Of a stretch of 64,000 nt of DNA, positions 22,348 to 53,841 are shown in pieces (position 1 is the first letter of the stretch; every line of letters begins with the position of its first letter). Position numbers and translations under genes: made by a program. The notes under the pieces were generated by a model. It saw only the letters and a list, made by a program, of their open reading frames with translations. It did no database searches and was not told the origin of the DNA. The stretch is from Stomorhina lunata (taxonomy: Eukaryota > Arthropoda > Insecta > Diptera > Rhiniidae): positions 17,984,884-18,048,883 of the forward strand of contig OW121743.1 of assembly GCA_933228675.1 (NCBI GenBank), in the 5' to 3' direction.

Positions 22348-22504
22348 CTGTAGTAAGCAATTTGTTAAACGCAAATAAATAAGATGATATTATTTTGGGG
22401 TTTTACTTATCCGTTTAAAGACATGTCGAATCTCTAAAGAATTTTTTGATAAATTTGTAAAAACATTTGAAGATACGTTTGTATGAATATTTATTTATTT
22501 GTTC

Positions 22505-31984: not shown

Positions 31985-32683
31985 CTAAGTAAAATAATAG
32001 TATTCACAATCATTAGCTGGCCGACATACGCAAGTTGGTGCTGGTGCGGGAGCAGCTGGTTCAGGACCTGGATTGGGAGGAAATGGTTAAGGTTTAAGGA
32101 ATGAGTTTGGTTAATTTTTGTTTTAGGAATTTAGAACAAAAAATAGTTTCGAAATTAATATTTGACTTACAAGGACAAGTTGGTTCTGGTGCTGGTGGTG
32201 GAGGAGCTGCTTTAGGAGGAGGGGGAGGAGGTGGTGGTGGGTAAGCTGCATAATCAGGCTTATGAGCTGGTGGTGGTGGAGGAGGAGGAGGTGGTGCTAA
32301 AGCAGCAGCTTCTGCCAATTTATCATGTACAAGTTTGGCCTTTGGCTTGTCATCTAGCAGACCCAATAATTGCTCTTCAAAATTACCCTTTTTCAAGCCC
32401 TTCTCTTCCTTTAAATCCATTAACTTTTCCAATTTTTCTTCCAGCTTATGATCGAATTTTTCTTTTTTCTTAAATAGTTTTTCAAACAAATTCGGTTTAG
32501 AAAACAAGCCCAAAGGATCGTCATCCTCGTCGGGGAAGTGCAGCGTGAGTTTGGGTAATAAATTGGCGGAGACTGGAAAAGACGAATATGATAAGAATGT
32601 AATTAAATTTCTCCTACTTTGACAGATGTTTTTCAAAACTTACCACAAGCCAAAAACATAAGGAAAATTATAAAATACTTCAT
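31985..32683 (-). CDS. Secreted Lys/Glu- and Pro-rich protein, 174 aa, three exons
   Basis: Reconstructed coding exons on the minus strand are 32683-32644 (40 nt), 32572-32171 (402 nt) and 32067-31985 (83 nt), with introns of 71 and 103 nt and GT/AG ends. The frame closes exactly. The start MKYFIIFLMFLAC is a signal peptide. The mature part has an acidic patch (DEDDD), a Lys/Glu/Leu-rich probable helical segment, two nine-Pro runs, and a tail with CPCPEPAAPAPAPTCVCR and a final DCEYYYFT. The Cys pairs could form disulfides. The 40-nt first exon and phase-1 intron match three other genes in the window, but the mature sequence is unlike theirs. TACGTGAC lies at 32966-32959, 283 bases upstream of the ATG. 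Function unknown; a structural secretion or matrix protein is a reasonable guess. Confidence 0.75.
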
Positions 32684-33760
32684 TTTTTACTACTTTAAAT
32701 GTTTATTATTTTTTTGAAATTGAAAGACCTTTCACAGCAATTTAAGCTGCTTTTTTAACGGTCATTGACTTGGTATTCACTTGAGTTATTTGCTGACGTT
32801 GCATCAATTTATTTTCTATTTATTTAATTTTGTTTTTATAGTTTCCAATATTTTGTTATTTTGCTAAATGCTTAAGACATTTTTTGTATTCTTTTAATTA
32901 CTTTTAATATCTCGTTTATTGCATTTTATTCGCAATATTTTCTATTTATGGCGATTTAGTCACGTACTTCTGTTAAAATAAATATTAGTTTTTGTTGTAT
33001 ATCTTTCCGTATTTGGTCTATAAATTGCGTGAGTTTAGAGAGCAATATTAAGGGCATTCACTTAAGTTTATAGAACTACAAAAAAAGAAAAAAATTAAAA
33101 ATTCAGTCTAGTCATAGTCAAATTCTACTCCAATTTCACCAATAACTGTCTCTTCGTATATCCCCATTAAGATCATTTTAAGTCAATTCGTTCAGTTCAC
33201 ATTTCCTCCTTTCAATAAATCGACTTTTTATGGCACCTCATCCTCAGTCATATTAATTTGTTTTCTGAATGTCTAATCTAGTCATAGTCTAGTCTTACTT
33301 CATCATACTCCTTTCTTTTCTTATAGCTCTTCAAAATTCATTAATTTTAATTATCTCTAAATCACAACATTTTCATTTCAAAAATTCATTTCATTCGATT
33401 TCTTCAATTAAAACTTATCTAATTAACACTTTTCAAAACATTTAATTATTTATTTTTCATTATATCTTAAGACGACACATGCGTCGATCTAAAATCATAG
33501 CCAAACCTCCCCTTTTGATGTCTTAACTTTAAGTGATACGATACGAGTATTTTAATGAAAATTTATCTAGTTTTGCTTATTTTGGCAAAGAAAATAAAAT
33601 TATTTTATTTGCTTTTATTTTAAGAAATTTTGAAATCTTTATTAAAAAGAAATATTTATTTGGAAGACACACACACACACAGACAGACATTAATATGATA
33701 TGTGATAATAGAAGTAAAAGCTTTGGTAATCATATTCCCAGCGTTCCTGGTTAAAGAGAG
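32684..33760. other. Upstream region of the Pro-rich gene; AT-rich
   Basis: It holds possible promoter signals on the minus strand: TACGTGAC (32966-32959) and TATAAAAAC near 32843-32835. A short CA/GA dinucleotide tract lies near 33667-33690. No other gene is supported. Confidence 0.45.
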
Positions 33761-33764
33761 AAAT

Positions 33765-36370
33765 AGTAGAGTCTTTCAAGTTAAACGAGCCAGATTAGTT
33801 GGTGTCGGCTAACTGCTGTCGGACTCTGACTATAGTCAGAGTCAACTATAGTCGGCGTCTACTCAGACTTTAGTCGACTCCGACTACAGTCGACTTTGAC
33901 TTTAGTCGACTCTGACTATGGTCGACTCTGACTATAGTCGATTCTGACTATAGTAAATTCTGACTGTATTCGACTCTGACTATACTAAGACTTCGACAAC
34001 GACGATAGTCGACATCGATTATAGTTGATTCCGACTATAGCCGATTCAGACTATAGTCGATTCTGACTATAGTCGATTCTGCCTAAGGTCGTTACTGACT
34101 ATAGTCGACTTTGACTTTAGTTGACTCTGACTATAGTCGACTTTGACTATAGTTGACTATAACTACAGTAGACTCTGACTACAGTAGACTTTGACTAAAG
34201 TCGACTCTGATTATACTCAGAACTCGACTACGACTATAGTCGACATCGATTATAGTCGATTCCGACTGTAGTCAACTCAGACTATAGTCGACTCTGACTA
34301 TAGTCGACTCTGAATATTGTCGACTGTGACTATAGTCGACTCTGACTATAGTTGACTCGGGATATAGTTGATAATGTCTATAGTCGCCTCTGACTATAGA
34401 TAACTCCGACTACAGTCAACTCTTAATTTAGTCGACTCCGACTTTTGTCGGAATCGACTAAAAGTCGACTCTGACTACAGTCGATTCTGCATATAGTCGC
34501 CTCTGGCTATAGTCGACTGTGAGTATAGTCGACCCTGACTATAGTCGACCCCATAGTCTACTCTGACTATAGTCGAGTCTCTCTATAGTTGACCCTGACT
34601 CTAACTATACTCGACTCTGACTATCGTCGACTCAAACTTTAGTCGACTCTGACTATAGTCAAATCTGACTATAGTCTACTCTGACTATAGTCAACTCTGA
34701 CTGTAGTCGACTCTGACTATAGTTGACTCTGACTATAGTCGACACTGACTACAGTCGACTCTGACTATAATCGACTCTGACAGTAGTCGACTCTGACTAT
34801 AGTTGACTCTGACTATAATTGATTTTGACTATAGTCGATTTTGACTATAATCAACTATGACTATAGTCGCCTCTGACTCTGATTAAAGTTGACTCTGACT
34901 ATAGTCGACTCTGACTACTGTCGACTATGACTGTAGTCGACTCAGATTATAGTCGACTCTGAGTATAATCGGCTATGGCTGTAGTCGACTCTGACTAAAA
35001 TCGACTGACTATATTCAACTCTGACTATAGTCTACTGTGACTATAGTCGACTCTGGCTATAGCCGACTTTGACTATAATCGACTCTGACTGTAGTCGACT
35101 CTGACTATAGTTGACTCTGACTATAGTAAAATCTGACTATAATCGACTCTGTCTGTAGTCGACTCTGACTATAGTTGACTCTGACTATAGTCGACTCTTA
35201 CTATAATCAACTATTACTATAGTCGACTCTGACTCTGATTAAAGTTGACTCTGACTATAGTCGACTCTAACTATAGTCGATTTGACTATAGTCGACTCTG
35301 AATATAGTCGAATCCGACTATATTCGGCTCTGACTTTAGTCGACTTTGAGTATAGTTGACTCTGACTATAGTCGACTCTGAATATAATCGACTCTGACTA
35401 TAGTCGACTCTGACTATAGTCATCTCTAACTATAGTCGCCGCTGACTATAGTCGACACTGACTATAATCGACTCTAGCTATAGTCTACTCTGACTATTGT
35501 CGACTCTGATTATATTCGATTCTGACTATAGTCGACTCTGACTATAGTCGACTATGACTATAATCGACTCCGACTATAGTCGACTCTGACTCTGATTAAA
35601 GTTGACTCTGACTCTAGTCACTCTGACTATAGTCGACTCTGACTATAGTCGACTCTGACTATAGTCGACTCTGACTATAATCGACTCTTACTATAGTCGA
35701 CTCTGACTATAGTCGGCTTTGACTGTAGTCGACTCAGATTATAGACGACTCTGAGTATAATCGACTATGGCTGTAGTCGACTCTGACTAAAATCGACTGA
35801 CTATAGTCAACTCTGACTATAGTCTACTCTGACTATAGTCGACTCTAACTATAATCGACTCTGGCTATAGTCTACTCTGACTATTGTCCACTCTGATTAT
35901 ATTCGATTCTGACTATAGTCGATTCTGACTATAGTCGGCTTTGACTGTAGTCGACTCTGATTATAATCGATTCCGACTGTAGTCGAATCTGAGTATAGTC
36001 GACTCTGACTTTAGTCGAATCCAACTATAGTCGATTCTGACTTTAGTCAACTCCAACTATAGTCGACTTTGACTATAGCCGACTCTGACTATAGCCGACT
36101 CTGACTATAATCTACTCTGACTGTAGTCGCCTCGGACTATAGTCGACTCTGGCTATAATCGACTCTGACTATAGTCTACTCTGACTATTGTCGACTCTGA
36201 TTATATTCGATTCTGACTATAGTCGAATCTGCCTATATTCGACTTTGACTATAGTCGACTCTGATTATAATCGACTCCGACTGTAGTCGGCTCTGACTAT
36301 AATCGACTTTGAAGATAGTCGACAATAATGGACTCTGACTATAATCGACTAACTATAATTGATTCTGACA
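33765..36370. repeat. 16-bp palindromic minisatellite, about 160 copies
   Basis: The consensus unit is GACTCTGACTATAGTC, tandemly repeated with frequent single-base changes. It contains two nested dyads, GACTATAGTC and AGTCGACT (across the unit junction). Larger shared variants (for example CTCTGACTCTGATTAAAGTT at about 34873, 35230 and 35588, about 357 bases apart) show higher-order duplication. It ends about 140 bases before the promoter of the neighbouring gene. Confidence 0.97.
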
Positions 36371-36509
36371 AAAATATTAAGATATATCTTATCACTAAGA
36401 ATTTTTTTCTAGGGTCATCATGTATTTTCTTGTTGCACAGTGTTACATAAAATAAAACATATTTAATGTATTTTAGAATATTTGATCAAACTAAATTCCT
36501 TTCTTACTA

Positions 36510-36578
36510 AAATACGTGACTTTTCACCATAAAGATCAATTCAGTTTTTTACAAAAGTTTTGAAGAATTCCTATAAAA
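36510..36578 (+). promoter_or_regulatory. Promoter: AAATACGTGAC motif and TATA box
   Basis: AAATACGTGAC lies at 36510-36520 and TATAAAA at 36572-36578. From TACGTGAC to the TATA box is 59 bases and from the TATA box to the ATG 66 bases. The same motif pair with nearly the same spacing precedes the genes at 42127-45812 and 51461-53841. A start of transcription near 36600-36605 is inferred. Confidence 0.7.
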
Positions 36579-36637
36579 TATCAGACTATTCTGGGAATTG
36601 TTTTACAGCAACTTTGAGTCCGGAGTAATACAAAACA

Positions 36638-37397
36638 ATGCGCTTTTATATCATAACAATATTTTTGTCCCTAATAGGTAAAATCAAATATATATATAGA
36701 AAATTTTTGATAATAATAATAATTTTTAAAATATTTGTTTATTTTCTAGCCTTACAACATCAGGTACAGTCTAAGAGTTTAAGAAGTGGTGGACCTATTT
36801 CACGTTTTCACTCAGGTCCTCTTCGCAAAGCAAGGGGCTTGCTAGGTAAGTCTAAAGTCTTTAAGTTATTACAAATTCGTGCAATAATAATTCTGATATT
36901 AAATTTTAACAGATGCAGTTACAGGGCCTTTAAAGCCTAAAGATGATGAAGTGCCTCCACAAGTTAAGGAACCAAAGGGTGTATTAAAAGATCTACCAAT
37001 TCCAGTTGATCTACCAATTCCAGTTGATCTACCACTTCCTATTGAAGAATTACCAATTCCCATCGATGGCATTTTAAATATTCCAAAGGGTCTGCTTAAA
37101 GGTCTACCACTTCCAGTTGATGAAATACCAATTCCTATTGACGATCTAGAGAAACTTCCAAAGGGTGTGTTAAAAGGTCTACCAGTTCCCGTTGATGATC
37201 TAGAGAAACTTCCAAAGGGTGTGTTAAAAGGTCTACCAGTTCCCGTTGACGATCTAGAAAAACTTCCAAAGGGTGTATTAAAAGGTCTACCAATTCCTGT
37301 TGATGATATAGTGAAAGTTCCAAAGGCTTTGACAAAAGATCTACCACTTCCTGTTGATCTACCAATTCTTGGAGACGATAAGGATGATAGCAATTAA
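36638..37397 (+). CDS. Secreted Leu-Pro-Val repeat protein, 206 aa, three exons
   Basis: Exons are 36638-36677 (40 nt), 36750-36845 (96 nt) and 36913-37397 (485 nt); introns of 72 and 67 nt have GT/AG ends and the frame closes. The start MRFYIITIFLSLI followed by ALQHQVQS is a signal peptide and cleavage region. A short basic segment (SRFHSGPLRKARG) follows, then a repeat domain of LPIPVD motifs and four 18-residue units of type KLPKGVLKGLPVPVDDLE, encoded by nearly identical 54-nt units, and an acidic end DDKDDSN. AATAAA follows at 37446-37451. The protein is probably extracellular and extended. The first exon, signal peptide and promoter make it a paralogue of the genes at 42127 and 51461. 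It resembles insect glue or silk-like secretion proteins in style only. Confidence 0.85.
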
Positions 37398-38095
37398 ACC
37401 CGAGTCTAAAGAAGAAAATGTCACGGAAAGTACAAGATGGGGCTTAATAAAAAGCTATAGCCGATCTTTTTAAACAGCAAATTTTTTCTTTAATAAATAT
37501 AAACAAAAGCAATTTTATAATCTAGTGCAAAAAGTAAATTTTTTATTATTTTATTTGTAATAAATAAAGAAGCTTTTTCCTTTCCTTCCGGTTATAGCAA
37601 AATGACAATTTTTGCAGTTGTCAAATTTCTTAAAAAGAACATGAAGAGGCTGGAATATGCATCCAGATTTTTTGTTGCCTAAAGAAAAATGTACAAGTTT
37701 TCGAAAATCACTTTTAACATTTTCGAAAACACCCGGCGAGAGACGAGACGACGACTGTCGGCCGATACATACAGTATTCTTTCTTGCTTTGTTTAGCTTG
37801 GATCACAAGACCATATGCTTGAGAGAATAAAATAAAAGAGAATAAAATCCTTAATCTTAGTTTGGCTTTAAAGGTCTAAAACCCTACCCACTAGACTTCA
37901 GTGGTTCCTCATGTTCTAAATATCTTTGTGTCTTTCGATGTACATGCAAAATGGAAATTTATTCCATTGAAATCTACCAAAATTAAGCTGTACATCGATT
38001 TGATCTCATAGCGCTTTTTATCATTTTTAAATAATTATTATTAGTTGTTTTCGGTTCAATATTTCTTCAGTTGTTTCAAATATTCCATGTACTGT
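37398..38095. other. 3' flank of the Leu-Pro-Val gene, no further gene seen
   Basis: AATAAA signals occur at 37446 and near 37560. The rest is AT-rich with no supported coding region. Confidence 0.5.
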
Positions 38096-40990
38096 GACTT
38101 CGCTTAGGTGGAATTCGCAATATCAAGTTCCCTTAATCACAAAGACTTTAGTCTTGGGAACCTGATCTTGATCAAAGGCTCGTTGGATGGAATTAGCAAT
38201 AGCAAATTTCCGTAATCCCAAAAACTTTAGTCCCGGACACCCGATCTTGATCAAGAACTTACGGAATACTTCGGTTATGTGAAATTCGCAATAGCTAATT
38301 CCCTTAACCACAGAGGCCTTATTTTGGAACACGCGATCTTGATCAAAGACTTACGGCAGATTTTGGTTGGGAAAAATTTGCAACATCAAATTTCCAAAAT
38401 CCCATAGACTTTAGTCTGGGACACGTAATCTTAATCAAAGGCTTATGGAAAAACTTCATTTAGATGCAATTCGCAACTGTAAATTCCCTGCGATCTTGAT
38501 CTAATACTTCCGGAAGGTTTTGGTAGGGTGGAATTCGCAAAAGAAAATTCCCCTTATCCCAAAGACTTTAGTGTTGGATACCCAATTTTGATGAAAGACT
38601 TATCGAAGACATCGGTTGATTGAAATTCGCAACTGCCAATTCCCTTAATCCCAAAGACTTTGGTCTTGGACACCTTAATTCCAAAGACTTTAGTCTCGGA
38701 CACCGGATCTTGATCGGGATTATTGTTCAAAATCCATTTTATGGCATGCAAATGGAATGGATAATGTTTGGTACAGGAACACCATAATTCGGTATTCTAT
38801 CTTCCTTAGTTCTGGTGTTCCTAAAGAAGATTGAAGTTTGTAGCCTTCACATATCCCAAAATCCCAAAGACTTAAGGCTGGGACACGTAAAGGCTTACAG
38901 AGAACTTTATTGAGGCGCAATTCGCTATACCCTTTATTCCAAAGACCTTAATCTCGGAAACACGATCCTGATTAAAGTATTATGGAAGACCTAGGTTAGG
39001 TGGAATTTGCAGCAGTAAATTCCCTTTAATCTCAGACTCGCGATCTTGACCAACTACTTCTGAAAGACTTTGGTTGGCTAGAATTCGCAAAAGAAAATTC
39101 CCCTTATCCCAAAGACTTTAGTGTTGGATACCCAATTTTGATCAAAGACTTATCGAAAATATCGGTTGGCTGAAATTTGCAACTGCCAATTCCCTTAATC
39201 CCAAAGACTTTGGCTTGGACACCTTAATCCCAAAGACTTTAGTCTCGGACATCCGATCTTGAACGGGATTATTGTTCAAAATCCATTCTATGGCTTGCAA
39301 ATAGAATGGATTATGTTTGGTACAGGAACACCATAATTCGGTGTTCTATCTTCCTTAGTTCTGGTGTTCCTAAAGAAGATTGAAGTTTGTTGCCTCCACA
39401 TATCCCAAAATCCCAAAGACTTAAGGCTGGGACACGTAAAGGCTTACAGAGAACTTTATTGAGGCGCAATTCGCTACAGCGTATACCCTTTATTCCAAAG
39501 ACCTTTATCTCGGAAACACGATCTTGGTCAAAGTATTATGGAAGACCTAGGTTAGGAGGAATTCACAGCAGTGAATTCCTTTTAATCTAAGACACGCGAT
39601 CTTGACCAAATACTTCTGGAAGACTTTGGTAGGGTAGAATTCGCAAAAGAAAATTCTCCTAGTCCCAATGACTTTAGTCTTGGACACCCAAATTTTGATC
39701 AAAAACTTATCGAAGACATCGGTTTGGTGAGATTCGCAACAGCCAATTCCCTTAATCAAAGACTTTGGCTTGGACACCTTAATCCCAAAGACTTTAGTCT
39801 TGGACATCCGATCTTGATTGGGATTATTGTTCAAAATCCATTCTATGGCATGCAAATGGAATGAATTATGTTTGGTACAGGAACACCATAATTCGGTGTT
39901 CTATCTTCCTTAGTTCTGGTGTTCCTAAAGAAGATTGAAGTTTGGAGTCTCCACAAATCCCAAAGACTTAAGTCTGGGACACATAATCTTAATCAAAGGC
40001 TAATGGAGGACTTCATTTAGGCGCAATTCGCTACAGCGTATACCCTTTATTCCAAAGACCTTAATCTCGGAAACACGATCTTGATCAAAGTATTATGGAA
40101 GACCTAGGTTAGGAGGAATTCACAGCAGTGAATTCCTTTTAATCTAGGACACGCGATCTTGACCAAATACTTCTGGAAGACTTTGGTAGGGTAGAATTCG
40201 CAAAAGAAAATTCTCCTAGTCCCAAAGACTTTAGTCTTGGACACCCAAATTTTGATCAAAAACTTATCGAAGACATCGGTTTGGTGAAATTCGCCACAGC
40301 CAATTCTCTTAATCCCAAAGACTTGGTCTTGGATATCTTAATCTTAAAGACTCGGACACCCAATTTTGATCGGGATTAATGTCCAGCATCCACTCTATGG
40401 AACACAAATGGAGTGAATTATTATTGGTAGTGGAACACAATAATGCAGTGTTCTATCATCTTTCGTACTTCTGGTATTCCTAAAGAAGATTGGAGTTTGG
40501 AGCATCCACATTATAGCAGGTCTTCTAACTAGAACTACTAGAACTTTATCAATTATATTCGAATGCTTGACTCTATGGCTTTCAAATAGTGTGGATTTTT
40601 ATTGTGAAAGGAACACCACACGGGTGATCTATCAGCCTTACTTCTGGTGTCCCTAAATTGGAGCTCTGAAACTTAATCGATTTGTTCGACAGCTTGACGG
40701 AGTATGTCAGTAACTGTCTTTCTCAATATGTGTCCTAGCCAACCAACTTCTCATCCCACAACTCGAAATATTCCATGTCTCAAAACTATATTGGAGCACG
40801 GCATTGAAATTTGTGTTAAGAACTTTAGTTCTCCCCAGATCAGATTGGAGTTTGGAGCCTCCACATATAAGCCTGTCTTAAAGACCTTCTGGATTTTTAA
40901 CAATTCATTTGATACCTTGATTAGATTAGATTTAAAGAGGATCCCACAGGATTGTGGGAGAATTCACAAGACCATAAGTTGATCCAGAGT
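38095..40990. repeat. Complex tandem repeat: units of about 550 bp built from roughly 90-bp subrepeats
   Basis: The phrase CAGGAACACCATAATTCGG recurs at about 38776, 39326 and 39880 (intervals about 550 and 554), with a diverged fourth copy near 40430. Within each unit phrases such as CCCAAAGACTTTAGTC, GATCTTGATCAAAG and GAATTCGCAA recur about every 90 bases. Short frames in it have no consistent phase between copies. Origin unknown; a decayed repetitive coding sequence cannot be excluded. Confidence 0.8.
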
Positions 40991-41421
40991 GATAGTTTAT
41001 ATCAGTAGTTGTGAGTCCTAGCCAATCATTCGTGTGCATATATTTGTCTGTAACATTAGTTGATCCATACGCAACTGCTCCTCCCTCGACTCGAAATATT
41101 TAATGTATCAGATCACGGCTTTGAAATTCTAAATAAAAACTTAAAGTTTAATACAATCAAGAAATTATAAAGAGTTCCCCAAGTCTTCTTTGCCTTGCAT
41201 AACATATTGGGAATCTGATGCCTCCGCTTTTTTTTTTAAATTATACTCCTTTGGCAACGGAAAGTTTTAACCTCATCAATAAATTGCCAGCAAAATTGGG
41301 GTAACATTTGGCACCCTTTTGTCCAAGACTTACTCTGATATCATCTGGCACCCCTTCATTGAAATCTGGCTTCCCAGAAGGTACAAGCTTCTAACATTTA
41401 ATTCCTGCCATTAAATCTCTG

Positions 41422-42126: not shown

Positions 42127-45100
42127 TTAGGCTTTAGTAACAGTGTCCGTTAGGGGTACTATGGTTGGAGTTGCTGGGGGTACTGGTGGAACATCCACAG
42201 GTGGTAATGCCTTAGGGTCTGCTGGTGGTGGTACAATTGCTGGAGGTGCCGGAAGAGAAACGGCATCAGTTAAGGTCTTAGGTGCATCTACAGGTAAAAT
42301 AACTGGAAGCGGAGGAAGAGAAACTGCCTCAGCTGGAGCTCCTAAGGTTAGAGGTGCTGGAGATACTGGATTTGCAGGAGGTGCTAGAGATGTGGTTGGT
42401 AATGGGGAAACAGCCGCAGGAGTTAAAGCCCTAGGATCTGTAGTAGCTGGCGGTGGTGGAGAAGTTAAAGCATCTGCCCCATCAGGAAGTGTCCCGGGTG
42501 GAAGGACAGCTGTCAAAGCAGCCAATCCCTTAGGATTTGCAATGGCAACTAAAATGACCGGAAGAAGAGCATCAACTAAAGCTGCAAAGGTACTAGGATC
42601 TTTAGCTGCAACTAACATTACTAGAGGAAGAGCATTAGCCAGAGGTTCAAAAGCCTTAAGATCCGTGGCAGCAGCAGATAAAACTACTGGAAGAATTGCA
42701 CCTTTCAAAGCTTTTAATATTTGAGGATCATCAGCTGAAATTAAGATTAGTAAAGGCAAAGCATCAGCTAGAGGAGCATTTTGATCTGCTGCTGCTGTCA
42801 TAACTACAGGACGAAGAGCTTCCGTCAGAGCTGCAAAAGCCTTATCATCATCAGCTGAGGCTAAGGTTAATGTTGGAAGAGCATCAGCCAAAGGAACCAT
42901 AGGATCTAAAGCAGCGGCTAAAACTATTAAGCGAAGAGCATTGGCCAGAGCACCAAATGCCTGAGGATCGGCCACAGCAGCTATAGTTAATGTAGGGAGG
43001 GCATCAACTAAAGCTACAAGAGCCTTAGCATCTGAAACTGCAGCCAATACAACAAGACGCAGAGCATTATTTAAAGCTGCGAAGGCTTGAGAGTCGGAAA
43101 CTGCAGCAGAAATTAAAAGAGGAAGTGAATTTGCCAAGGCAACTAAAGCCTTAGGATCAGCAGTGGCAGCTGAAAGTACTAGGCGGATGGCATTTGTCAA
43201 AGCTGCTAATGCTGGGGGACTTGAGGCTGAAGATGTTATTAAAACAGGTAAAGCATTTGCCAAGGCAAGTAATCCTTTAGGATTTGAGACCGCAGCTGAG
43301 AGTACTAGGCGAAGTGCTTCAGACAAAACTGGTAAAGTGTTAGGATCTGCGGCAGCAGCTGAAAGTGCAGCGGGTAGAGCACCAGCCAAAGCCACTAAAA
43401 CCCCAGGATCTGCAGCTAAAATTGCTGGAAGAGAGAGAGCTTTAAGCAATGCTGCTAAGGCCGCAGGATCTGTAGCTCCAGCTAAGACTACAGGTAGGAG
43501 TGCCTCAACCAAAGCTGCCAAGTTCTTAGGGTCAGAAGCTGCAGCTAAAATTACTAGAGGCAGAGCATCAGCTAAAGCTGCTAAGGCCGCAGGATCTACA
43601 GCTCCAGCTAAAATAACGGGAAGTAAAGCATCCATTAAAGCAGTCAATGTTGAAGGATCTGAGCTAGCAGCTAATATAACAAGAGGTAGGGCATCAGCCA
43701 AGGCTGCTAATGCCGCAGGATCCACAGCTCCAGCTAAAACTACAGGAAGGAGAGCATCAATTAAGCTTTGCAATAACTGAGGATCACGTGCTGCAGCTAA
43801 AATTATAGAAGGCAAAGCATCAGCTAATGCGGTTAGGGCAGCAGGGTCTTTAGCACCAGCTAAAACTACTGGAAGGAGAACCTCGAGTAAAGCTTCTAAT
43901 TTCTTAGGTCTTTCAGCTGCGGCTAAAATAACAAGAGGTAGGGCATCTGCCAAAGGTACAAATGCATTAGGATCGGCGGCTGCAGCTGCTAGTACAGGAC
44001 GGAGTACCTCAATCAAATCTGCTTGATCCTTGGGATTTTCAGTAGCTTTTATTATAACTAGAGGTAGGGCATCAGATAGTGCTACAAAGGCTTTTGGTTC
44101 TGCTGCTGCTGCTAAAATTACTGGATGAAGGGCATCAGTCAAAGCTGCCAATACCTTGGGATCTGCAGATGCAGCTATGACTACAACTGGGAGTGCATCA
44201 GCCAAAGCTTCTAATCCCTTAGGGTCCTCAGCTGCGGCTAAAACTATTGGAGGCACTGCTTTAGATAAAGCTGCAAGTAACAAAGGATCTGCAGCAGCAG
44301 CTATTAGTAGTGGACGAAGTATATCAGCCAAAGCTGCTGCCTTAGGATCTGTAGGTGGATTTGCTGGAGGAGGCACTGAAGTTACGGTAGGTTCTGACAA
44401 TTTAGGAGGTGCAGGTGAAGTAACTTGAACTTCTGGAGGTGCTTGCGTAGAGATTTCCTTAGCATCTGCAGGAGGTAATGTTATTGCTGAAGGATCTAAC
44501 GTTTTAGAACCACCAATTGCTGCTAAAATTGTTGGAAGAAGTGCCTTAGCCAAGGCTGCTAAAGCCTTAGGATCTTCAGCTAAGATTGCTGGCAGTGCTG
44601 AAGGTGAAGCTGGATCAGGCAAAGCTGGTAAGGTCTTGGGATCTGAAACGGGCAATGCTGGAGGAGGCATAGAAGCCTTGGGCTGTTTATCTCCAGCTAA
44701 AGGTGCTGTTACTTCATTAAGGTCATCATCCTCCAAAGTTCCTGGTCCTGATAAGGTGGGATAGTCACCTGTACATGGTGTTGTTGGTGTTGATAATGCT
44801 GATCTCGGAACTTTGTCGGATTTTGGTGATGGGGCTGTTGACGAGGTTGATGTATAAGAAGAAGTTGGCGTTAAAGCGGCAGCCGTACGCTTCGCTTTTG
44901 ACTTATGTATTGATAATGTTGATCTGGGAACTTTTCCCGATTTTGATGCAAATCCCGTTGATGAAGTTAATGTATAAGGCAATGTTGGTGTTAAAGCGGC
45001 AGCCGTATCCTTAGCTTTTGTTTTATGTATCAATTTTCTTTTTGTCCTGCCTGCTGATCTTAGTACCTTTGCCGATGCTGGCTTTGAGGCCAACGATGGA

Positions 45101-45812
45101 GTCCATGTATAAGTAGTAGTAGTTGGTATTGCAGCTTCTGAAGTCTTATTAGCTTTAGCCTCTCTCTTTATCCTTCCTGCTGATCTTGGTTTTTTTGCTG
45201 ATGCTGGCTTCGAGGCAAATGATGTAGTCCACGTATAAGTAGTAGTAGTTGGTATTACAGCTGCCGACGTCTTATTAACTTTGGCAATGTGCACTATATC
45301 TCTTCTGGTTCTGACTGCTGCTATTGGTGCTTTTCTTGATGCTGACTTCGAGGCCACTGCTGAAGTCCATGTACTAGTATAAGTAGAAGTAGTAACTGGA
45401 TTTGCAGCAGCCGTCTCCTTAGCTTTTGGCTTATGTACCACATCCCTTTTTGTAATGCCTGCTGCTCTATGTAGTTTTGTACATTTTGGCTTCACAGCCC
45501 CTCCCGTAGTACAAGTAGTGTAAGTAGAAGTATAAGTTGTAGTAGGTATTGCAGCTGCCGTAATATTAGCTTTTGGTTTTTGTTCCACATCCCTCTTTGT
45601 TCTGCTTTTAGGATATAATTTTAAAATAGGCCCATGACTTGCTTCAAAATCCGGAATACATGATTTAGATAAGCTTCCTCGATGCTTATGTCCCGATTGT
45701 ACTTGATGAAAAGCTAAAATATTTAGGGATTTAATATTAATACTAACAACTTATTCTTAAATTTACACGTACCAGCTAGAACTAAAACTATTGTTATTAT
45801 ATGCAAACGCAT
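42127..45812 (-). CDS. Secreted Ala-Leu repeat protein, 1208 aa, two exons
   Basis: Minus-strand exons are 45812-45773 (40 nt) and 45713-42127 (3587 nt), with a 59-nt GT/AG intron; total length is 1209 codons. The start MRLHIITIVLVLA plus AFHQVQSG is a signal peptide region. About residues 50-290 hold six Thr-rich repeats of the style AAAIPTTTYTSTYT, the first ones separated by basic pairs (TKRD, RTRRD, RIKRE, RTKRK), candidate furin-type cleavage sites, and many possible O-glycosylation sites. The centre (about 390-1080) is some 30 units of 21 residues, typically DPAALAALADALPLVILAA, probably helical. The C-terminus is Pro/Ala-rich, ending DTVTKA. Paralogue of the genes at 36638 and 51461 by first exon and promoter. 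Extracellular structural role inferred; no named homologue. Confidence 0.85.
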
Positions 45813-45866
45813 TCTATCTAACGCACTGGCAAGTTATTCTAAACTAATGCCAAGAATTTTTTTATA

Positions 45867-45936
45867 ATTTATAAGAATTTTGCAAAATTTTACTTCAACC
45901 TGAGTTGAATGCGTTTGTTTAAAATGTCACGTATTT
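45867..45936 (-). promoter_or_regulatory. Promoter: AAATACGTGAC motif and TATA box
   Basis: On the minus strand AAATACGTGAC lies at 45936-45926 and TATAAAT at 45873-45867. From TACGTGAC to TATA is 60 bases and from TATA to ATG 61 bases. It matches the promoters at 36510 and 51329, including the ATTC.TATAAA context around the TATA box. Confidence 0.7.
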
Positions 45937-46379
45937 AAAGAAGGCAGGAATTTTTTTTTTATAAATCAGAAGGTACCAACCGACCTCGAGAAAAAAGCAT
46001 ACCCGAGGAGAACTTTGGATATTCGAACATACTTTTATACAGGGTCTTCCACTTTGCGAAATTTGACATCTTGTTGAGGCTACATCTTTCAAACGAGTAA
46101 CAAGTGTTCATCTTAAGCGTTGAGGTCCATTTCTGGCTAATGGGTATGTGTAGAAATTGTCGAATTTGGATGTTACAGTTTGTGTGACTGAACCGACTGC
46201 AGTCGGTTCTTCGTAACGTAACGACTCGATTAAAACCTAGGAATGACATTTCTGTGATATTTACAATAATATCGCAGTTGCTACATGCCGAAGAAACAAC
46301 ATTTGATGAGAAGTTTGGGTTGTCGACGTCATTAAATAATATGTAAAATAGTATTCCAAACGATTTCTATTAAATGCTA

Positions 46380-46650
46380 GATACTTTATTTAAATCCAGC
46401 TTTAGTTTCCACCGACCTACCCATTTCTTAGCTCTTTTGTGGAATTCATTCTACTGCCTATAGGCCGATGTCGTCTCTTCCATAAATTATGACCTTTTTA
46501 TCTCCATTAACGTTCTTTATTTTGTTTCCCTTCATTTGATAAGACATTAGGCAAGGAGATCCTCATAATTTTGCTTTAACATCTGTTTATTAATGCCCAC
46601 TTAACCTCAATTATCCCGACGTTCCATGCTTCACATCCGTATAGTATGAA
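46380..46650 (-). pseudogene. LINE reverse-transcriptase 3' fragment, decayed
   Basis: Minus-strand reading gives FILYGCEAWNV, then INRC, KIMRISLPNVLSNE and a basic region with stops. The LYGCExW and NEE-type motifs are typical of the segment just after the reverse transcriptase domain of non-LTR retrotransposons. A related stretch near 46850-46915 looks like a second decayed copy of the same part. Stops and frame changes make it a fossil. Confidence 0.5.
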
Positions 46651-46919
46651 GAACTTCACGTTTGAGTTAAAAATTCATTCAAATTCAAATTTTTTCTACC
46701 TTATTATGAATTTAGAGCATCACACATTACTTAAGCATCTAGAAGTAGCTCGAGCCTTCTCTTGGAGGTTCAAGAAAATTCAATCTCCACTTGCGTTCTT
46801 TTATTTCTTGAAGAGCAGCCCAGAAAATCGCGTGCTCTTCCTTAAAATAAGTCGTCGCTACGTTCCATATTTCACATTCGTAACGTATGCTGGACTTGAC
46901 GTTGAGTTAAAAATGTAGC

Positions 46920-47199
46920 TTGTTATAAACTTAAAGTGCCAAAGATCCAAAAAAACACGATTCTTCTCTTCCGTGTCTGCAATTTTGCCCAAAGTGTTCG
47001 CGCAATATCCAGCAACAAAAGAACTAAACAAAGAAAAAGATCTTACAATGCTCAAATTCCCAAACTATATTTCTGGGTGTTTTGTTGTCTTTCGCTTTTC
47101 TTCTCTACAATTTTGCCCAAAGGATTTAGTCTGCAATAGCCAGCAGTGACAGATCAGAAAGTGGAATTCTTATATAAAGTTCAGGTTGGGGGTTGAGAA
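46920..47199. other. Spacer, no gene seen
   Basis: Short frames only. Overlapping short ORFs on both strands (46936-47139, 46858-47055) have no signal peptide or motif. Confidence 0.4.
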
Positions 47200-50160
47200 G
47201 AAACGAAATGGGTCGAAGATGCTGCAGATGTTGTTGATATGGCGGGAGCTATACCTTTTAAATCTGCTGTAGCTGATGGTGAGAAAGAAGGCAATGTCTT
47301 AGCATCTATTGCACAAGGAAGAATTTCAGGAGGTAGTGCAGTTGCCAAAGCTACTTATCCCTTTGGGAAGCAGGAGTTAAACCTTTTGAATCAGCAGTGG
47401 CTGGTGTAAGTTCAGAAGAAGCTGAATTTGCCGGAATTGCTACTTTGATATTGTGGAAACAGCGGCGCGAGGAAGAATTCAAGGAGATAGTACAGTTGCC
47501 AAAGCTACTAATCCCTTTAGGAAGCAGGAATTAAACCTTTTGAATCTGCGGTGGCTAGTGTAAGTTCAGAAGAAGCTGAATTTGCCGGAGGTGCTACTTT
47601 GATATTGTGAAGACAGCGGCGGGAGCTAAACCTTTTGAACCTGCAGTACCTGATGGTGAGAAAGAAGGTAATGTCTTAGCATCTATTGCACCAGGAAGAA
47701 TTTCAGGAGGTAGTGCATTTGCCAAAGCTACTTATCCCTTTGGGAAGCAGGAGTTAAACCTTTTGAATCTGCAGTGGCTGGTGTAAGTTCAGAAGAAGCT
47801 GGATTTACCGGTGGTGCTACTTTGATATTGTGGAAACAGCGGCGCGAGGTAAACCTTTTGAATCTTCTGTAGCTGGTGGTGGGAAAGAAGGTAATATTTA
47901 AGCATCTATTGCACCAGGAAGAATTCAAGGAGGTAGTATAGTTGCCAAAGCTACTAATCCCTTTAGGAAGCAGGAATTAAACCTTTTGAATCTGCAGTGG
48001 CTGGTGTAAGTTCAGAAGAAGCTGAATTTGCCGGAGGTGCTACTTTGATATTGTGGAGACAGCGGCGGGAGCTAAACCTTTTGAACCTGCAGTACCTGAT
48101 GGTGAGAAAGAAGGTAATGTCTTAGCATCTATTGCACCAGGAAGAATTTCAGGAGGTAGTGCATTTGCCAAAGCTACTTATCCCTTTGGGAAGCAGGAGT
48201 TAAACCTTTTGAATCTGCAGTGGCTGGTGTAAGTTCAGAAGAAGCTGGATTTACCGGAGCTGCTACTTTGATATTGTGGAAACAGCGGCGGGAGCTAAAA
48301 CTTTTGAATATGCAGTAGCTGATGGTGAAAAAGAAGGTAATATCTTAGCATCTATTGCACCGGGAAGAATTCAAGAAGGTAGTATAGTTGCCAAAGCTAC
48401 TAACTCCTTTGGGAAGCAGGAGTTAAACCTTTTGAATCTGCAGTGGCTGGTGTAAGTTCAGAAGAAGCTGGATTTACCGGAGCTGCTACTTTGATATTGT
48501 GGAAACAGCGGCGGGAGCTAAAACTTTTGAATATGCAGTAGCTGATGGTGAAAAAGAAGGTAATATCTTAGCATCTATTGCACCAGGAAGAATTCAAGGA
48601 GGTAGTATAGTTGCCAAAGCAACTAATCCCTTTAGGAAGCAGGAATTAAACCTTTTGAATCTGCAGTGGCTGGTGTAAGTTCAGAAGAAGCTGAATTTGC
48701 CGGAGGTGCTACTTTGATATTGTGGAAACAGCGGCGGGAGCTAAACCTTTTGAACCTGCAATACCTGATGGTGAGAAAGAAGGTAATGTCTTAGCATCTA
48801 TTGCACCAGGAAGAATTTCAGGAGCTAGTGCATTTGCCAAAGCTACTTATCCCTTTGGGAAGCAGGAGTTAAACCTTTTGAATCTGCAGTGGCTGGTGTA
48901 AGTTCAGAAGAAGCTGGATTTACCGGAGGTGCTACTTTGATATTGTGGAAACAGCGGCGGGAGCTAAAACTTTTGAATATGCAGTAGCTGATGGTGAAAA
49001 AGAAGGTAATATCTTAGCATCTATTGCACCAGGAAGAATTCAAGGAGGTAGTATAGTTGCCAAAGCTACTAATCCCTTTAGGAAACAGGAATTAAACCTT
49101 TTGAATCTGCTGTGGCTGGTGTAAGTTCAGAAGAAACTGAATTTGCCGGAGTTGCTACTTTGATATTGTGGAAACAGCGGCGCGAGCTAAACCTTTTGAA
49201 CCTGCAGTACCTGATGGTGAAAAAGAAGGTAATATCTTTGCATCTATTGCACTAGGAAGAATTCCAGGAGTTAGTACAGTTGCCAAAGCTACTAATCCCT
49301 TTGGGAAGCAGGAATTAAACCTTTTGAATCTGCAGTGGCTGGTATAAGTTCAGAAGAAGCTGGATTTACCGGAGGTGCTACTTTGATATTGTGGAAACAG
49401 CGGCGGGAGCTAAAACTTTTGAATATGCAGTAGCTGATGGTGAAAAAGAAGGTAATATCTTACCATCTATTGCACCAGGAAGAATTCAAGGAGGTAGTAC
49501 AGTTGCCAAAGCTACTAATCCCTTTAGGAAGCAGGAATTAAACCTTTTGAATCTGCAGTGGCTGGTGTAAGTTCAGAAGAAGCTGAATTTACCGGAGTTG
49601 CTACTTTGATATTGTGGAATAAGCGGCGCTAGGTAAACCTTTTGAATCTGCAGTAGCTGATGGTGAGAAAGATGGTAATGTCATGGCATCTATTGCACTA
49701 GAAAGAATTGCAAGAGGTAGTATAGTTGCCAAAGCCACTAATCCCTTTGGGAAGCAGGAGTTGAACCTTTTGAATATGCGCTGGCTGTTGTAAGTTCAGA
49801 AGAAGCTGAATTTGCCGGAGTTGCTACAACCTTTTAATATACAGTAGGTGGTGGTGGGAAAAAAGGTAATGTCTTGGCATCTATTGCACCAGGAAGAATT
49901 TCAGGAAGTAGTGCAGTTGCCGAAGCTAATTATACCTTTGGGAAGCAGGAGTTAAACCTTTTGAATCTGCAATGGCTGGTGTAAGTTCATAAGAAGCTGA
50001 ATTTGCCGGAGTTGCTACATTGATATTGTGGAAACAGCGGCGCGATGTCTTGGCATCTATTGCACCAGGAAGAATTTTAGAGGAAGGGCTTTTGACAAAG
50101 GTTTAAAAGCCTTCAGATCCAAGGCAGCTAAAGATAAAACCACTTGAAGGATTGCCTTTA
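47200..50160 (-). pseudogene. Decayed tandem-repeat gene related to the 1208-aa protein gene
   Basis: About a dozen copies of a unit near 223 bp (CAGTGGCTGGTGTAAGTTCA at about 47773, 47998, 48221, 48443 and 48666). On the minus strand fragments read VAPPANSASSELTPATADS and KGLTPAS, like the Pro/Ala tail of the 1208-aa protein (PPPATTDPRALTPAAVS). The end near 50080-50150 (GGTTTAAAAGCCTTCAGATC, then GCAGCTAAAGATAAAACCAC) closely matches that gene at about 42643-42700. A period of 222-225 instead of a multiple of three, plus stops, destroys the frame. No first exon or promoter was found. It was probably born by duplication of the neighbour and then amplified after losing coding constraint. Confidence 0.7.
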
Positions 50161-51320
50161 AAGTCTTTCTAGCTGGATGTATGAAGATCGACGAATATAA
50201 AAGAGTTAAAAATGCTTTTGTAAACCGAACACCAACATCAATAGACTATCGTTTTAAGGCCAAAACAGATCGAATGTATGGAATGGATGTATAGAAGAAT
50301 GCGAGCGTAGAACGACTTCACATATTGGAATTTTTCAGTTGTATAGTCAGATTCGCAAAGTCAAGAGGAGTTGGAAATAAAACAAATCACCATCAATTAT
50401 GATTTCACTACTCAACTTCCACAAAGAAGACTAAATTGGGCTCCGATACATTCGTTTTTATCTATTGCATCATAAATGTTACACTTAAATTGAGGAATGG
50501 GGGAGACTAACTTAAAGATAAACAATCTGCGTTTTTAAAGTTTTGGGATGGGAGACTACACTTAAGAAATGGATCACCAAGTGAATTACACAGTCGTTAA
50601 CATCTACCGCATCGTGAAATTTTCAATTAAATTGAGGAATGGGGGAGATTAACTGCAAAGTTAACAATTTTCGTTTTCTATTCTAGACTTAAGAATAAGG
50701 TTATTCTGCCATATTAAACTAAGAAGAAAATGAGTTAACTGAACTTGGTTTCCGCAAAAGCTTTAGTTGACGAAGACCTGAAATTAGAGATAATGTAACA
50801 ATTCTAATCAAATCTGTCACAAACTCGACTATTACCACAATATCTTCCGACGATATCGAGATCTTGGACATTTTGCAAGCGAGAACTTAATTAGTCAAAG
50901 GAGGGTACATAGTCGTTAACTTTTATCGCATCGTTAATATTCCAATTAAATTGAGGAATGGGGTAGATTTCAAAAAACATACCTCAGCAATCATCGTTTT
51001 ATTGACTCGACTATTAGATGGCAGATGTCAGCATAAGGCTGAGAAGAACAACTTAGCTTGTAAAGAGTAGATTATCAGATTTAAAATCTAGATAACGATT
51101 CCACAAGACGCCTACATAGACTATTGATAAGAAAAGTCGAAGAGACTTCAAACATTTAGCTATTTAATATTTAATATCACTAAAATAAAATATTATTCCA
51201 AAATTTATTTGTCCCATATTCTCACACCTCCACGAAGTAGACAAAATATTTCATTAATTACATTTAACAATTACAAATATCATTACATTATAAATAAGTT
51301 TATCAATTAAAATTCATAGT
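50161..51320. repeat. Spacer with three diverged repeats
   Basis: AAATTGAGGAATGGGG recurs near 50488, 50632 and 50949, accompanied by GTCGTTAAC...CGCATCG stretches at about 50592 and 50911. The repeats are imperfect and irregularly spaced. No gene was found; the right end is the upstream flank of the Pro-Ala repeat gene. Confidence 0.55.
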
Positions 51321-51328
51321 TTCTGGAG

Positions 51329-51400
51329 AAATACGTGACTTTACGACCACAAAATCTTTCAATTAATTGAAATAAAATTGCGTTAAAAATTCTTATAAAA
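51329..51400 (+). promoter_or_regulatory. Promoter: AAATACGTGAC motif and TATA box
   Basis: AAATACGTGAC lies at 51329-51339 and TATAAAA at 51394-51400. From TACGTGAC to TATA is 62 bases and from TATA to ATG 67 bases. The stretch after the motif (CTTTACGACCACAAAATC) is also similar to that of the gene at 36638 (CTTTTCACCATAAAGATC). Confidence 0.7.
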
Positions 51401-51460
51401 TATGAAACAATTTGAAGAGTTTAGGCAGAGCATTTTCGAATATCGAGTGTGAGCAATAAA

Positions 51461-53841
51461 ATGCGCTTATATCTAGTAGCAATAATTCTAATATTAGCTG
51501 GTAATTTTGAAATATTTTAGAAAAACTTTTAAAAATTCAACTAATAATTTTTAAACTATTTCCCATTATTATAGTTCTACAGCTGCAGGTAGAATCATTT
51601 GGTAGGCTTAGAAGGGGAAGATTACATAAATCTGGTGCTAAATCGGTGGGACATGTTGTACGAATGGTGCCACTCCGTGTGCAGAGATCAATTTTAGAGG
51701 CACCTGCACGTGGCTTAAGAGTTAGGGCCAAGCGTGGTTTGAAGAGAAAAGGAAAACATAGTAAGAAATTCGAAGCCTTTTTAACATCGTCGCCATCTAC
51801 ATCGTCACCAACTTCGCCACAAGCAGCTCCCGAAACGAAAGTTGAAGCTTCACCTTCAGTTGACGTACCCGCTCTAGAGGGACCTCCATCAACTCCAGTT
51901 GCAGCAGCAGCACCTGAATCGCCTGGAATAGCCCCAGATACTCCACCACCAACATTTATAACACCAACATCATCACCAACAGTACCAGATACTACACCTG
52001 GAGCAGGACCGGATACTGCGCCTGGAGTAGTACCAGAAGCTGCACCTGAAGTGGCACCGATAACACCAACCTTGGGAACATTTCCAACAACATTAGCAGC
52101 AGTACCAGAACCTGCAGTAGTACCAGATGCTGCTCCTGAAGTGGCGCCAGACACAGCACCTGGAGTACCACCGATAACATTACCAACATCGCCGGGAATA
52201 GCGCCTTCAGTACCATCGCCGGAAGTAGCTGCGATACCACCAACAACATCAGCAGCAGTACCGGAACCTGGAGTAGCACCAGATGTTGCACCTGAAGTAG
52301 CACCAGACACTGCACCTGGAGAACCACCGATATTTCTGCCAACATCACCAGGAATAGCACCTTCAGTACCATCGCCAGAAGTAGCTGAGATACCACCAAT
52401 AACATCAGCAGCAGTACCGGAATCCGGAGAAGTACCAGATGCTGCGCCTGAAGTAGCACCAGATGCTCCTGAAGAAGGACCAATATTTCTGCCAACAATA
52501 CCGGGGACAGCACCTTCAGTACCATCACCAGAAGTAGCTGCGATACCACCAACAACATCAGCAGTAGTACCGGAACCTGGAGTAACACCAGATGCTGCAC
52601 CTGAAGTAGCACCAGATGCTGCTCCTGAAGAAGGACCAGTATTTCTGCCAACAATGCCGGGGACAGCACCTTCAGTACCATCGCCGGAAGTAGCAGCGAT
52701 ACCACCAACAACATCAGCAGCAGTACCGGAACCTGGAGTGGCACCAGATGTGGCACCTGAAGTAGCACCAGACACTGCACCCGGAGAACCACCTATATTT
52801 CTACCAACATTGCCGGAAATAGCTCCTTCAGTACCATCGCCAGAAGTAGCAGCGATACCACCGACAACATCAGCAGCAGTACCGGAACCTGGAGTGGCAC
52901 CAGATGCGGCACCTGAAGTAGCACCAGACACTGCAGCTGCAGAACCACCGATATTTCTGCCAACATTGCCGGAAATAGCTCCTTCAGTACCATCGCCAGA
53001 AGTAGCAGCGATACCACCAACAACATCAGAAGCAGTACCGGAACCTGGAGTGGCACCAGATGCGGCACCTGAAGTAGCACCAGACACTGCACCTGCAGAA
53101 CCACCGATATTTCTGCCAACATTGCCGGAAATAGCTCCTTCAGTACCATCGCCCGAAGCAGCACCAGATGCTAAACCAGAACCAGCACCAGGAAGAGCTC
53201 CTGAAACATCACCAACAGGAACAGTACCAGATACGCCAACATCGCCAACTTGGTCTCCAAGCTTACCTGCAGCCGTACCTGGAGAAGCTCCAGATGCTGC
53301 ACCTGGAGAAGCCCCAGACGCAGCACCTGGAGAAGCACCAGGCGCTGTACCTGGAGAAGCCCCAGACGCAGCACCTGGAGAAGCCCCAGGCGCTGTACCT
53401 GGAGAAGCACCAGAGGCTGCACCTGATGCTGCACCTGAAATTGCACCAGATGTGGCTGTTAAATTGCCACCAATAACAACACCAACATCCACATGGCCGA
53501 CAACATCCCCAGCGGCAGGACAGGGACCTCCTGATGTCGCCTTACCTCCATTCGAAGTTGCTCCTCCCGAGGTCGCTCCACCTTCAATCGAAGTTTCTCC
53601 TCCTGAGATAGTTGTAGATCCTATACCTTGTGCTGGACGTCCTGGTAAAGCAAAGGGACTTTGCCGCAGACCACCTGGTAAGGGAAAAGGTCATAGCAAG
53701 CCTCATAGCGGTGAACATGGTAATAGCGAAGGACATGGATCTCACGAAAAGGATGAAAGTGGTGAAAAAGGCAATGGCAAAGGACATGGATCTCATGAAA
53801 AGGATGATAATGGCAGTGAACAAGGATCTCGAGAAGAATAG
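51461..53841 (+). CDS. Secreted Pro-Ala repeat protein, 768 aa, two exons
   Basis: Exons are 51461-51500 (40 nt) and 51575-53841 (2267 nt) with a 74-nt GT/AG intron; total length is 769 codons. The start MRLYLVAIILILA plus VLQLQVES is a signal peptide region. Residues about 20-85 are strongly basic (RLRRGRLHKSGAKS, AKRGLKRKGKHSKK). The centre holds about seven 52-residue units with VAAIPPTTSAAVPEPGVAPD and PPIFLPTSPGIAPSVPSPE, then 8-residue APGEAPDA units. The last 65 residues are His/Lys/Gly/Glu-rich with two GHGSHEKD motifs. AATAAA follows at 53847 and 53925. Its antisense strand has a long open frame by composition only. Paralogue of the genes at 36638 and 42127. Extracellular, probably unfolded; the basic and His-rich ends might bind acidic polymers or metal, which is speculation. 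Confidence 0.85.

Follow-up and report, generated by a model that had tools for sequence, protein, structure and literature searches.

Judged from their sequences, genes B, C and D of a four-gene cluster in the fly Stomorhina lunata are paralogs across a sharply bounded cassette, which extends over about 135 bp of promoter, the first coding exon and a few further residues, and the repeats of their mature products are unrelated to each other. The cluster lies in a 64,000-nt stretch of contig OW121743.1 (the window, whose first letter is position 1), and its span, positions 31985-53841, holds up. Of the two halves of the cassette, the promoter is the stronger, and it was absent from the preliminary description, which had proposed a fixed secretion and expression cassette with swapped products for all four genes; this proposal stands for B, C and D and fails as a four-gene family, gene A falling outside it.

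Genes of the cluster and their products

In each of the four genes the coding sequence is open to the stop codon. Gene B (36638..37397, plus strand; 206 aa) has three exons, at 36638-36677 (40 nt), 36750-36845 and 36913-37397, and thus one intron more than C and D. It encodes 18-aa repeats of the LPxPVD type without cysteine, and its core promoter (36513..36577, plus strand) carries TACGTGAC at 36513-36520 and TATAAA at 36572-36577. Gene C (42127..45812, minus strand; 1208 aa) has two exons, at 45812-45773 (40 nt) and 45713-42127, and a core promoter (45868..45933, minus strand) with TACGTGAC at 45933-45926 and TATAAA at 45873-45868. The N-terminal part of its product contains Thr-rich segments split by basic furin-like sites, and the remainder comprises about 25 helical Ala-Leu repeats of 21 aa (42 aa as paired repeats). 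Gene D (51461..53841, plus strand; 768 aa), with exons at 51461-51500 (40 nt) and 51575-53841, encodes 52-aa Pro-Ala repeats followed by a basic C-terminus; its core promoter (51332..51399, plus strand) carries TACGTGAC at 51332-51339 and TATAAA at 51394-51399. The LPxPVD, Ala-Leu and Pro-Ala repeats are unrelated, in agreement with the earlier observation of wholly different mature parts. Gene A (31985..32683, minus strand; 174 aa, with exons at 32683-32644 (40 nt), 32572-32171 and 32067-31985) encodes a Pro-rich protein whose C-terminus contains cysteines (CPC, CVC).

Between C and D, on the minus strand and in the orientation of C, lies a decayed tandem array (47200..50167) with about 11 copies of a 223-bp unit. 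It is related to the 3' part of C by both blastn (E 8e-16) and tblastn (58% over 45 aa). All three frames of C's strand are interrupted in this array, with 42-45 stops per frame.

A shared promoter and first exon in genes B, C and D

The three promoters follow one order, namely an invariant AAATACGTGAC, 51-54 bp, TATAAA, 55-61 bp and the ATG; the distance from TACGTGAC to TATAAA is 51, 52 and 54 bp, and that from TATAAA to the ATG 60, 55 and 61 bp, in B, C and D, respectively. For the 200-bp 5' regions, the scores of 77 (BC), 58 (BD) and 63 (CD) compare with highest null scores of 36, 38 and 98, and the observed score was reached in 0/3000, 0/3000 and 1/3000 null comparisons, drawn from a set that included the genes' own region. 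Compared with shuffled sequences, similarity among the three genes was high in the promoter (z 9.7-11.1) and exon 1 (z 5.8-8.0) and gone upstream of about -135 (far upstream z -1.1 to 1.8); in the downstream direction, the homology ends within about 60-80 aa. A search of the 728-Mb genome with the exon-1 pattern, allowing up to three mismatches, returned three matches, namely genes B, C and D, and the reversed pattern returned none. With homology over both -135..-1 and exon 1 as the test of membership, B, C and D belong to the family and A does not.

The TACGTGAC element occurs 4893 times in the 728-Mb genome, corresponding to 0.43 copies expected per 64 kb, and five copies were found in the window (P 9e-5), a probability that is after the fact because the 8-mer had been chosen by eye in the upstream sequences and was counted afterwards. 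Four of these five copies are on the sense strand upstream of genes A-D.

Gene A was taken out of the family because it has only the intron layout in common with the other three genes: its promoter, exon 1, intron and exon-2 start are at shuffle level (z -1.5 to 0.8). Its copy of TACGTGAC (32959..32966, minus strand, the strand of A) lies 276 nt 5' of the ATG, a spacing unlike that in B, C and D, and the chance of one same-strand copy per 300 bp is about 0.001. Exon 2 of A matched only itself in the genome, and no match to A was found in the protein collection, which may be insect-poor, so that this last result is weak.

The first-exon layout

A 40-nt first coding exon (13 codons plus one base) followed by a phase-1 intron is present in all four genes, as first described, the GT...AG introns measuring 71 (A), 72 (B), 59 (C) and 74 nt (D). 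The motif [AV][LF]..QV[QE]S, which had been attributed to three of the genes, breaks down in gene C, where A-F-H-QVQS is one residue short. A strict scan for hydrophobic exons beginning with M[RK], 34, 37, 40, 43 or 46 nt long and followed by a phase-1 intron of 48-109 nt, matched only genes A, B, C and D in 264 kb, made up of the window and its two 100-kb flanks. When any second residue was allowed with a 40-nt exon, the window also yielded six further starts, of which five lie in gene C and the 47-50 kb array or antisense to them; the 40-nt layout alone is therefore not rare. In addition, phase-1 introns are reported to be abundant near signal peptides (PMC1626468), and those at signal peptides are described as typical of the Drosophila Sgs glue genes (PMC6352337, PMC10835880). 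Taken by itself, the 40-nt phase-1 exon is not supported as a remarkable feature.

Repeat sequences and their relatives

None of the four proteins matched a Pfam family above its cut-off. A sub-threshold match to DUF7391 on gene C (E 1.7e-5; 24.9 bits vs a cut-off of 27) is probably an effect of composition. Exon 2 of C had no match among the 7990 top word-sharing candidates scored from the protein collection, which may be insect-poor, and this negative is likewise weak. Within the genome, the repeat segment of C found its own gene twice and one weak match (E 4e-4, 23% identity), and the promoter and exon DNA of C found only itself. Exon 2 of D found itself and 32 weak matches (best E 2e-17); the two places inspected among these were both simple-repeat frames.

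A single-sequence model of 311 aa of the gene C repeat showed regular helices (pLDDT 72.6). The top folds in a Foldseek search were importin-4 and designed armadillo proteins (best E 4e-3, none at or below 0.001; TM to query 0.17-0.55 in the best 50 rows). The modelled repeat may thus resemble HEAT/ARM alpha-solenoid proteins in its regular helices, but it differs from them in being strongly Ala/Leu and secreted.

A further gene with the same promoter spacing

A loose promoter search led to gene E (L059), a further secreted repeat gene on the minus strand of the same chromosome (C10, ATG at 14396497), at a distance of 3.6 Mb. It is arranged as TACGTGAC-51-TATAAA-64-ATG and has a 43-nt exon, a phase-1 intron of 77 nt and a 204-aa product with internal repeats. 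The spacing is kept and the similarity of the promoter is partial, in a gene that was selected for the motif and the TATA box.

Across the genome, the loose TACGTGAC-TATA grammar gave 88 matches vs 114 in the reversed control. As there is no enrichment, TACGTGAC and TATA alone are no marker of such genes, and the grammar was ruled out in this use. Three of the 88 matches are B, C and D, 44 were examined, nine overlap sites already taken, and 32 were set aside, by eye, as repeat families with a common prefix. The signal-exon scan at 40 codons passed two of the 44 outside matches vs 0.3 expected, gene E and L077, the latter being taken for a chance frame; among random 560-bp stretches, 40/5463 passed at 40 codons and 4/5463 at 100 codons. 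No intronless signal frame in the 44 could be called a gene by eye. Gene E is the sole convincing gene among the 44.

Comparison with known secretion genes

The cluster shares several features with the Drosophila genes Sgs1, Sgs3, Sgs7, Sgs8 and Eig71Ee, as these are described in PMC6352337 and PMC10835880: a phase-1 intron that interrupts the signal peptide, larger members with repeats in a long exon, clustering by repeat-rich DNA, and rapid turnover of the repeat sequence. For Sgs1, a first coding exon of always 28 bp, a phase-1 intron of 50-71 bp and a long repeat exon are reported (PMC10835880); the first introns here are similarly short (59-74 nt), whereas the first exon is 40 nt in all four genes. 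With the intron of A-D placed after codon 13, the Sgs-type layout is thus present in kind and different in position. The repeats also differ from those of Sgs genes, being Ala-Leu helices, LPxPVD and Pro-Ala. A common promoter is demonstrated for B, C and D; in PMC10835880, neither "promoter" nor "upstream" appears in the main text.

Lepidopteran fibroin heavy chain is likewise described with a very short exon 1 encoding part of the signal peptide and then a large repeat exon, and two sericin genes are described as close together and thought to derive from one progenitor (PMC9684489). These belong to another insect order and have other repeats, the likeness being one of gene arrangement. The new glue (ng) genes of Drosophila are also small secreted genes, adjoining glue genes, and are reported to lack introns and to encode fewer than 180 aa, including Thr runs and a C-terminus rich in Arg/Lys (PMC10835880). 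Genes B, C and D exceed 180 aa and contain introns, and A (174 aa) contains introns and 3.4% Ser+Thr, so that none of the four is of this type.

Origin and possible function of the locus

On the sequence evidence, B, C and D probably constitute a co-regulated exocrine repeat-protein locus, similar in logic to the Sgs glue genes and diverged from a common cassette. The part following the signal peptide would have diverged through internal repeat expansion into unrelated products, a single exocrine tissue would express the genes jointly and strongly, and their products would be mixed in one secretion, acting as an adhesive, coat or lubricant. By analogy, the locus may be glue-like, working as the Sgs genes do, with no descent from them implied. 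Two points tell against this reading: B contains an intron that is missing from C and D, and the blowfly Lucilia cuprina reportedly produces no Sgs glue (PMC9880899). A defensin puts S. lunata close to blowflies and flesh flies. In Drosophila, Trachealess/Tango, reported to act in the trachea and the salivary gland, favours a context that TACGTGA matches, though the ACGTG core of this sequence is common to several PAS factors (PMC3896416). The fit to this context makes a salivary-type gland the first candidate tissue.

A real possibility, somewhat short of an even chance, is that local duplication and fast repeat turnover produced secreted structural or mucin-like proteins other than glue, for example of the female or male accessory gland, the gut lining or the tracheal lumen. 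This account has the duplication in common with the exocrine glue-like reading and differs in tissue and use. The same sequence evidence speaks for it, TACGTGA fits the tracheal context of Drosophila (PMC3896416), phase-1 introns around signal peptides are common (PMC1626468), and the blowfly Lucilia cuprina is reported to be without Sgs glue (PMC9880899). However, the resemblance to the Sgs layout is close (PMC6352337, PMC10835880), though a layout is no evidence of tissue.

The fading of homology shortly past the phase-1 intron is also what would be seen if the promoter and signal exon had been copied in front of unrelated repeat frames, by exon shuffling at this intron. We regard such capture as unlikely: C and D remain weakly similar over the 40 residues that follow (p 0.0015; B-D 0.10, B-C 0.49), intron 1 is alike in B and D (z 4.8) and the start of exon 2 in B and C (z 4.5), as suits duplication followed by divergence, and a search of the genome for donors of the C and D repeats gave no convincing candidate, two of the outside matches of D having been inspected.

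Direct descent from the Sgs1/3/7/8/Eig71Ee glue genes would account for the phase-1 intron in the signal peptide, the short intron 1, the long repeat exon and the repeats nearby. It is nevertheless highly improbable, as the C-terminal IRxC[LV]C motif of that group and the PCxxxxK motif found near the C-terminus of Sgs4/5/5bis are absent from all four proteins A-D, exon 1 has 40 rather than 28 nt, B has no cysteine, and Sgs1 and Sgs7/8 are reported to have originated within Drosophila and to lack clear homologs in species further away (PMC10835880). Finally, a chance convergence of signal exons in unrelated secreted genes describes gene A and, refuted by the promoter and exon-1 similarity, has next to no probability for B, C and D.

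The rapid evolution of glue, silk and mucin genes makes them hard to find by protein similarity. The promoter and signal exon described here stay recognisable while the products turn over and can therefore serve as a search hook, and the spacing rule found one more secreted repeat gene, 3.6 Mb away. Rather speculatively, the cassette may be a modular platform on which calyptrate flies build new structural proteins for exocrine secretion. A single module, present on B, C, D and E of one chromosome, would have received new repeat products again and again, among them a secreted alpha-solenoid polymer released from its precursor by cleavage at several sites. If so, a lineage thought to be without such genes would have its own, independent equivalent of Drosophila glue or moth silk. 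If tissue expression agrees, the secreted structural proteins of flies other than Drosophila could be catalogued directly by means of the cassette, and new repeat proteins could be observed arising under a constant control unit.

A shared promoter and signal exon in three of four neighboring genes

The four predicted genes in the window (C10:17984884-18048883 of the 728-Mb assembly), designated A to D, were modeled by splice-site reading, and their junctions are predictions. Gene A (exons 32683-32644, 32572-32171 and 32067-31985, minus strand) would encode 174 aa, gene B (36638-36677, 36750-36845 and 36913-37397, plus strand) 206 aa, gene C (45812-45773 and 45713-42127, minus strand) 1208 aa, and gene D (51461-51500 and 51575-53841, plus strand) 768 aa. 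In these models, every first exon comprises 40 coding nt and is followed by a phase-1 intron of 71 (A), 72 (B), 59 (C) or 74 nt (D); the preliminary description was thus right about this layout. AATAAA or ATTAAA words occur within about 200 nt past every stop, which carries low weight in such AT-rich DNA.

When 264 kb (the window and its flanks) was scanned, only A to D combined an M[RK] signal exon (34-46 nt) with a phase-1 intron; under relaxed criteria, applied to just the window, six further starts also passed. The flanks are rich in repeats, with few plausible gene frames of at least 110 codons, as judged by eye in a list cleared of the most frequent repeat frames. A genome-wide search with a 35-place exon-1 pattern, allowing up to three mismatches, matched B, C and D and no other site; the reversed pattern, used as a control, matched nowhere.

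When exon 1 and the 160 bp preceding it were aligned pairwise, the scores were 77 (B-C), 58 (B-D) and 63 (C-D), values reached by 0, 0 and 1 of 3000 null comparisons, respectively. The scores of gene A against the others lay within the null, being reached by 320 to 2395 of 3000. Phase-1 introns are reported to be generally abundant near signal-peptide cleavage sites (PMC1626468), and this abundance is enough to account for gene A. The similarity among B, C and D was concentrated in the promoter at -135 to -1 (z = 11.1 for B-C, 9.7 for B-D and 9.7 for C-D) and in exon 1 (8.0, 5.8 and 6.5), with lower values, in the same order, far upstream at -400 to -136 (1.8, 1.1 and -1.1), in the intron 1 core (1.2, 4.8 and 1.5) and in the first 90 nt of exon 2 (4.5, 1.0 and 2.2). 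For the residues following the signal peptide, similarity p values were 0.49 (B-C), 0.10 (B-D) and 0.0015 (C-D). BLASTP aligned 60-80 columns of the three N-termini (E 6e-5 to 1e-3) and found nothing better than E 1 among these proteins past that point. Taken together, the segment z-scores and the extent of the BLASTP alignments indicate that the unit common to B, C and D is the promoter, the signal exon and a few codons.

The promoters of B, C and D carry AAATACGTGAC as an invariant block, together with AATTC[CT]TATAAA[AT]TAT. The promoter 8-mer TACGTGAC precedes TATAAA by 51 (B), 52 (C) or 54 nt (D), and TATAAA precedes the ATG by 60, 55 or 61 nt, respectively. The proposal of a fixed secretion and expression cassette is therefore strengthened, as the promoter itself is homologous among the three genes. 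The proposed family of four neighbors was not borne out, because A is within the null; the data instead favor three genes (B, C and D) together with a distant one, gene E.

The promoter motif and distant gene E

The TACGTGAC motif occurs 4893 times in the genome, or 0.43 times expected per 64 kb, and five times in the window (P 9e-5, for an 8-mer picked after the upstream sequences had been viewed). Four of the five copies lie upstream of A to D on their sense strand; the fifth, at 14106, has no tie to them. Genome-wide, TACGTGAC N40-68 TATAAA N42-70 ATG gave 88 matches versus 114 in the reversed control, so the TACGTGAC-TATAAA pair by itself predicts little.

Among these 88 matches, 44 places outside the window were examined, and one opens into a predicted secreted gene. 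This gene E, 3.6 Mb away on the same chromosome (ATG at C10:14396497, minus strand), is predicted to have a 43-nt first exon, a 77-nt phase-1 intron and a product of 204 aa with internal repeats; its sequence contains MRSSEALVILIALT, and its promoter reads TACGTGAC-51-TATAAA-64-ATG. A comparable frame of at least 100 codons was found in 4 of 5463 random stretches, corresponding to 0.03 expected in 44. The 5' region of E exceeded the null in 2000 of 2000 comparisons with C, in all but 3 with B and in all but 10 with D, a comparison that is partly circular because E was selected for carrying the motif and TATA box.

Elsewhere in the genome, two insect defensin gene clusters were observed, at about 25.83-25.85 Mb on C7 (four matches) and about 125.43 Mb on C2 (three matches). 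The mature peptide of one defensin is identical to insect defensin A (1ica) at 36 of 40 residues, followed in closeness by sapecin and lucifensin; these three come from Phormia, Sarcophaga and Lucilia, respectively, which makes the fly a probable calyptrate.

Protein products and repeat turnover

The product of gene B consists of 18-aa units around LPxPVD, and that of gene D of 52-aa Pro-Ala units with a basic C-terminus. In gene C (42127-45812), the N-terminal part carries Thr-rich segments separated by basic sites spaced 42-50 aa (in order, RTKR, ITKR, RTRR, RIKR, RTKR and KAKR), and these regularly spaced RxKR-type sites span residues about 50-290. The Thr-rich part is followed by 21-aa helical units paired as a 42-aa period. 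The regular spacing of the basic sites suggests cleavage of a precursor into several Thr-rich peptides and a helical repeat domain. Alignment-free fold prediction of a 311-aa piece of C gave regular helices (mean pLDDT 72.6); the top Foldseek matches, importin-4 and designed armadillo proteins, reached E 4e-3, with none at E <= 0.001. No Pfam family exceeded its cut-off in the A-D proteins.

An array of 223-bp units at 47.2-50.2 kb (47200-50167) is related, in decayed form, to the 3' part of gene C, pointing to turnover of repeats here. A coding repeat of C appears to have been copied, to have decayed and to have been re-amplified as this non-coding tandem array.

The cluster is surrounded by large arrays of 31-bp GGAAGACATTTCTATAGAAAAGTTGACCAAA-like units in both orientations (1-606, 7324-9916, 10675-12456, 22502-24608, 25841-27344, 29087-31790, 57608-61407 and 62565-63634). 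A 2.5-kb array of the 16-bp unit GTCGACTCTGACTATA (33857-36323) ends about 190 bp before the B promoter motif. Transposase-like open frames lie at 2542-4584 (plus) and 20351-21408 (minus); as judged by eye, one resembles Transib/RAG1-like elements and the other mariner.

Comparison with known secretion systems

A phase-1 intron within the signal peptide is reported as common to the Drosophila glue genes Sgs1, 3, 7 and 8 and Eig71Ee (PMC6352337), and Sgs1 is described as having a first exon of always 28 bp and an intron of 50-71 bp (PMC10835880). The same source gives IRxC[LV]C as the mark of the Sgs1/3/7/8/Eig71Ee family and PCxxxxK as that of the other Sgs family; in contrast to both, none of the four A-D proteins contains either motif. 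Sgs1 and Sgs7/8 reportedly lack clear homologs in more distant species (PMC10835880), and Lucilia cuprina reportedly makes no Sgs glue and perhaps lacks Sgs genes (PMC9880899). Like this locus, the moth fibroin heavy chain is described with a tiny signal exon (PMC9684489). A literature search on glue genes and other secreted repeat genes of non-Drosophila species, covering mainly open-access papers, showed no such calyptrate-fly locus among the matches listed.

In Drosophila midline and tracheal enhancers, TACGTGA reportedly accounts for 10 of 66 ACGTG elements and fits the consensus for tracheal use by Trachealess/Tango, with Trachealess expressed in both trachea and salivary gland (PMC3896416). 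A Trachealess/Tango link of the B/C/D motif is a candidate by analogy, and a lead only. For the locus as a whole, a glue, silk or mucin function would be a reasonable analogy.
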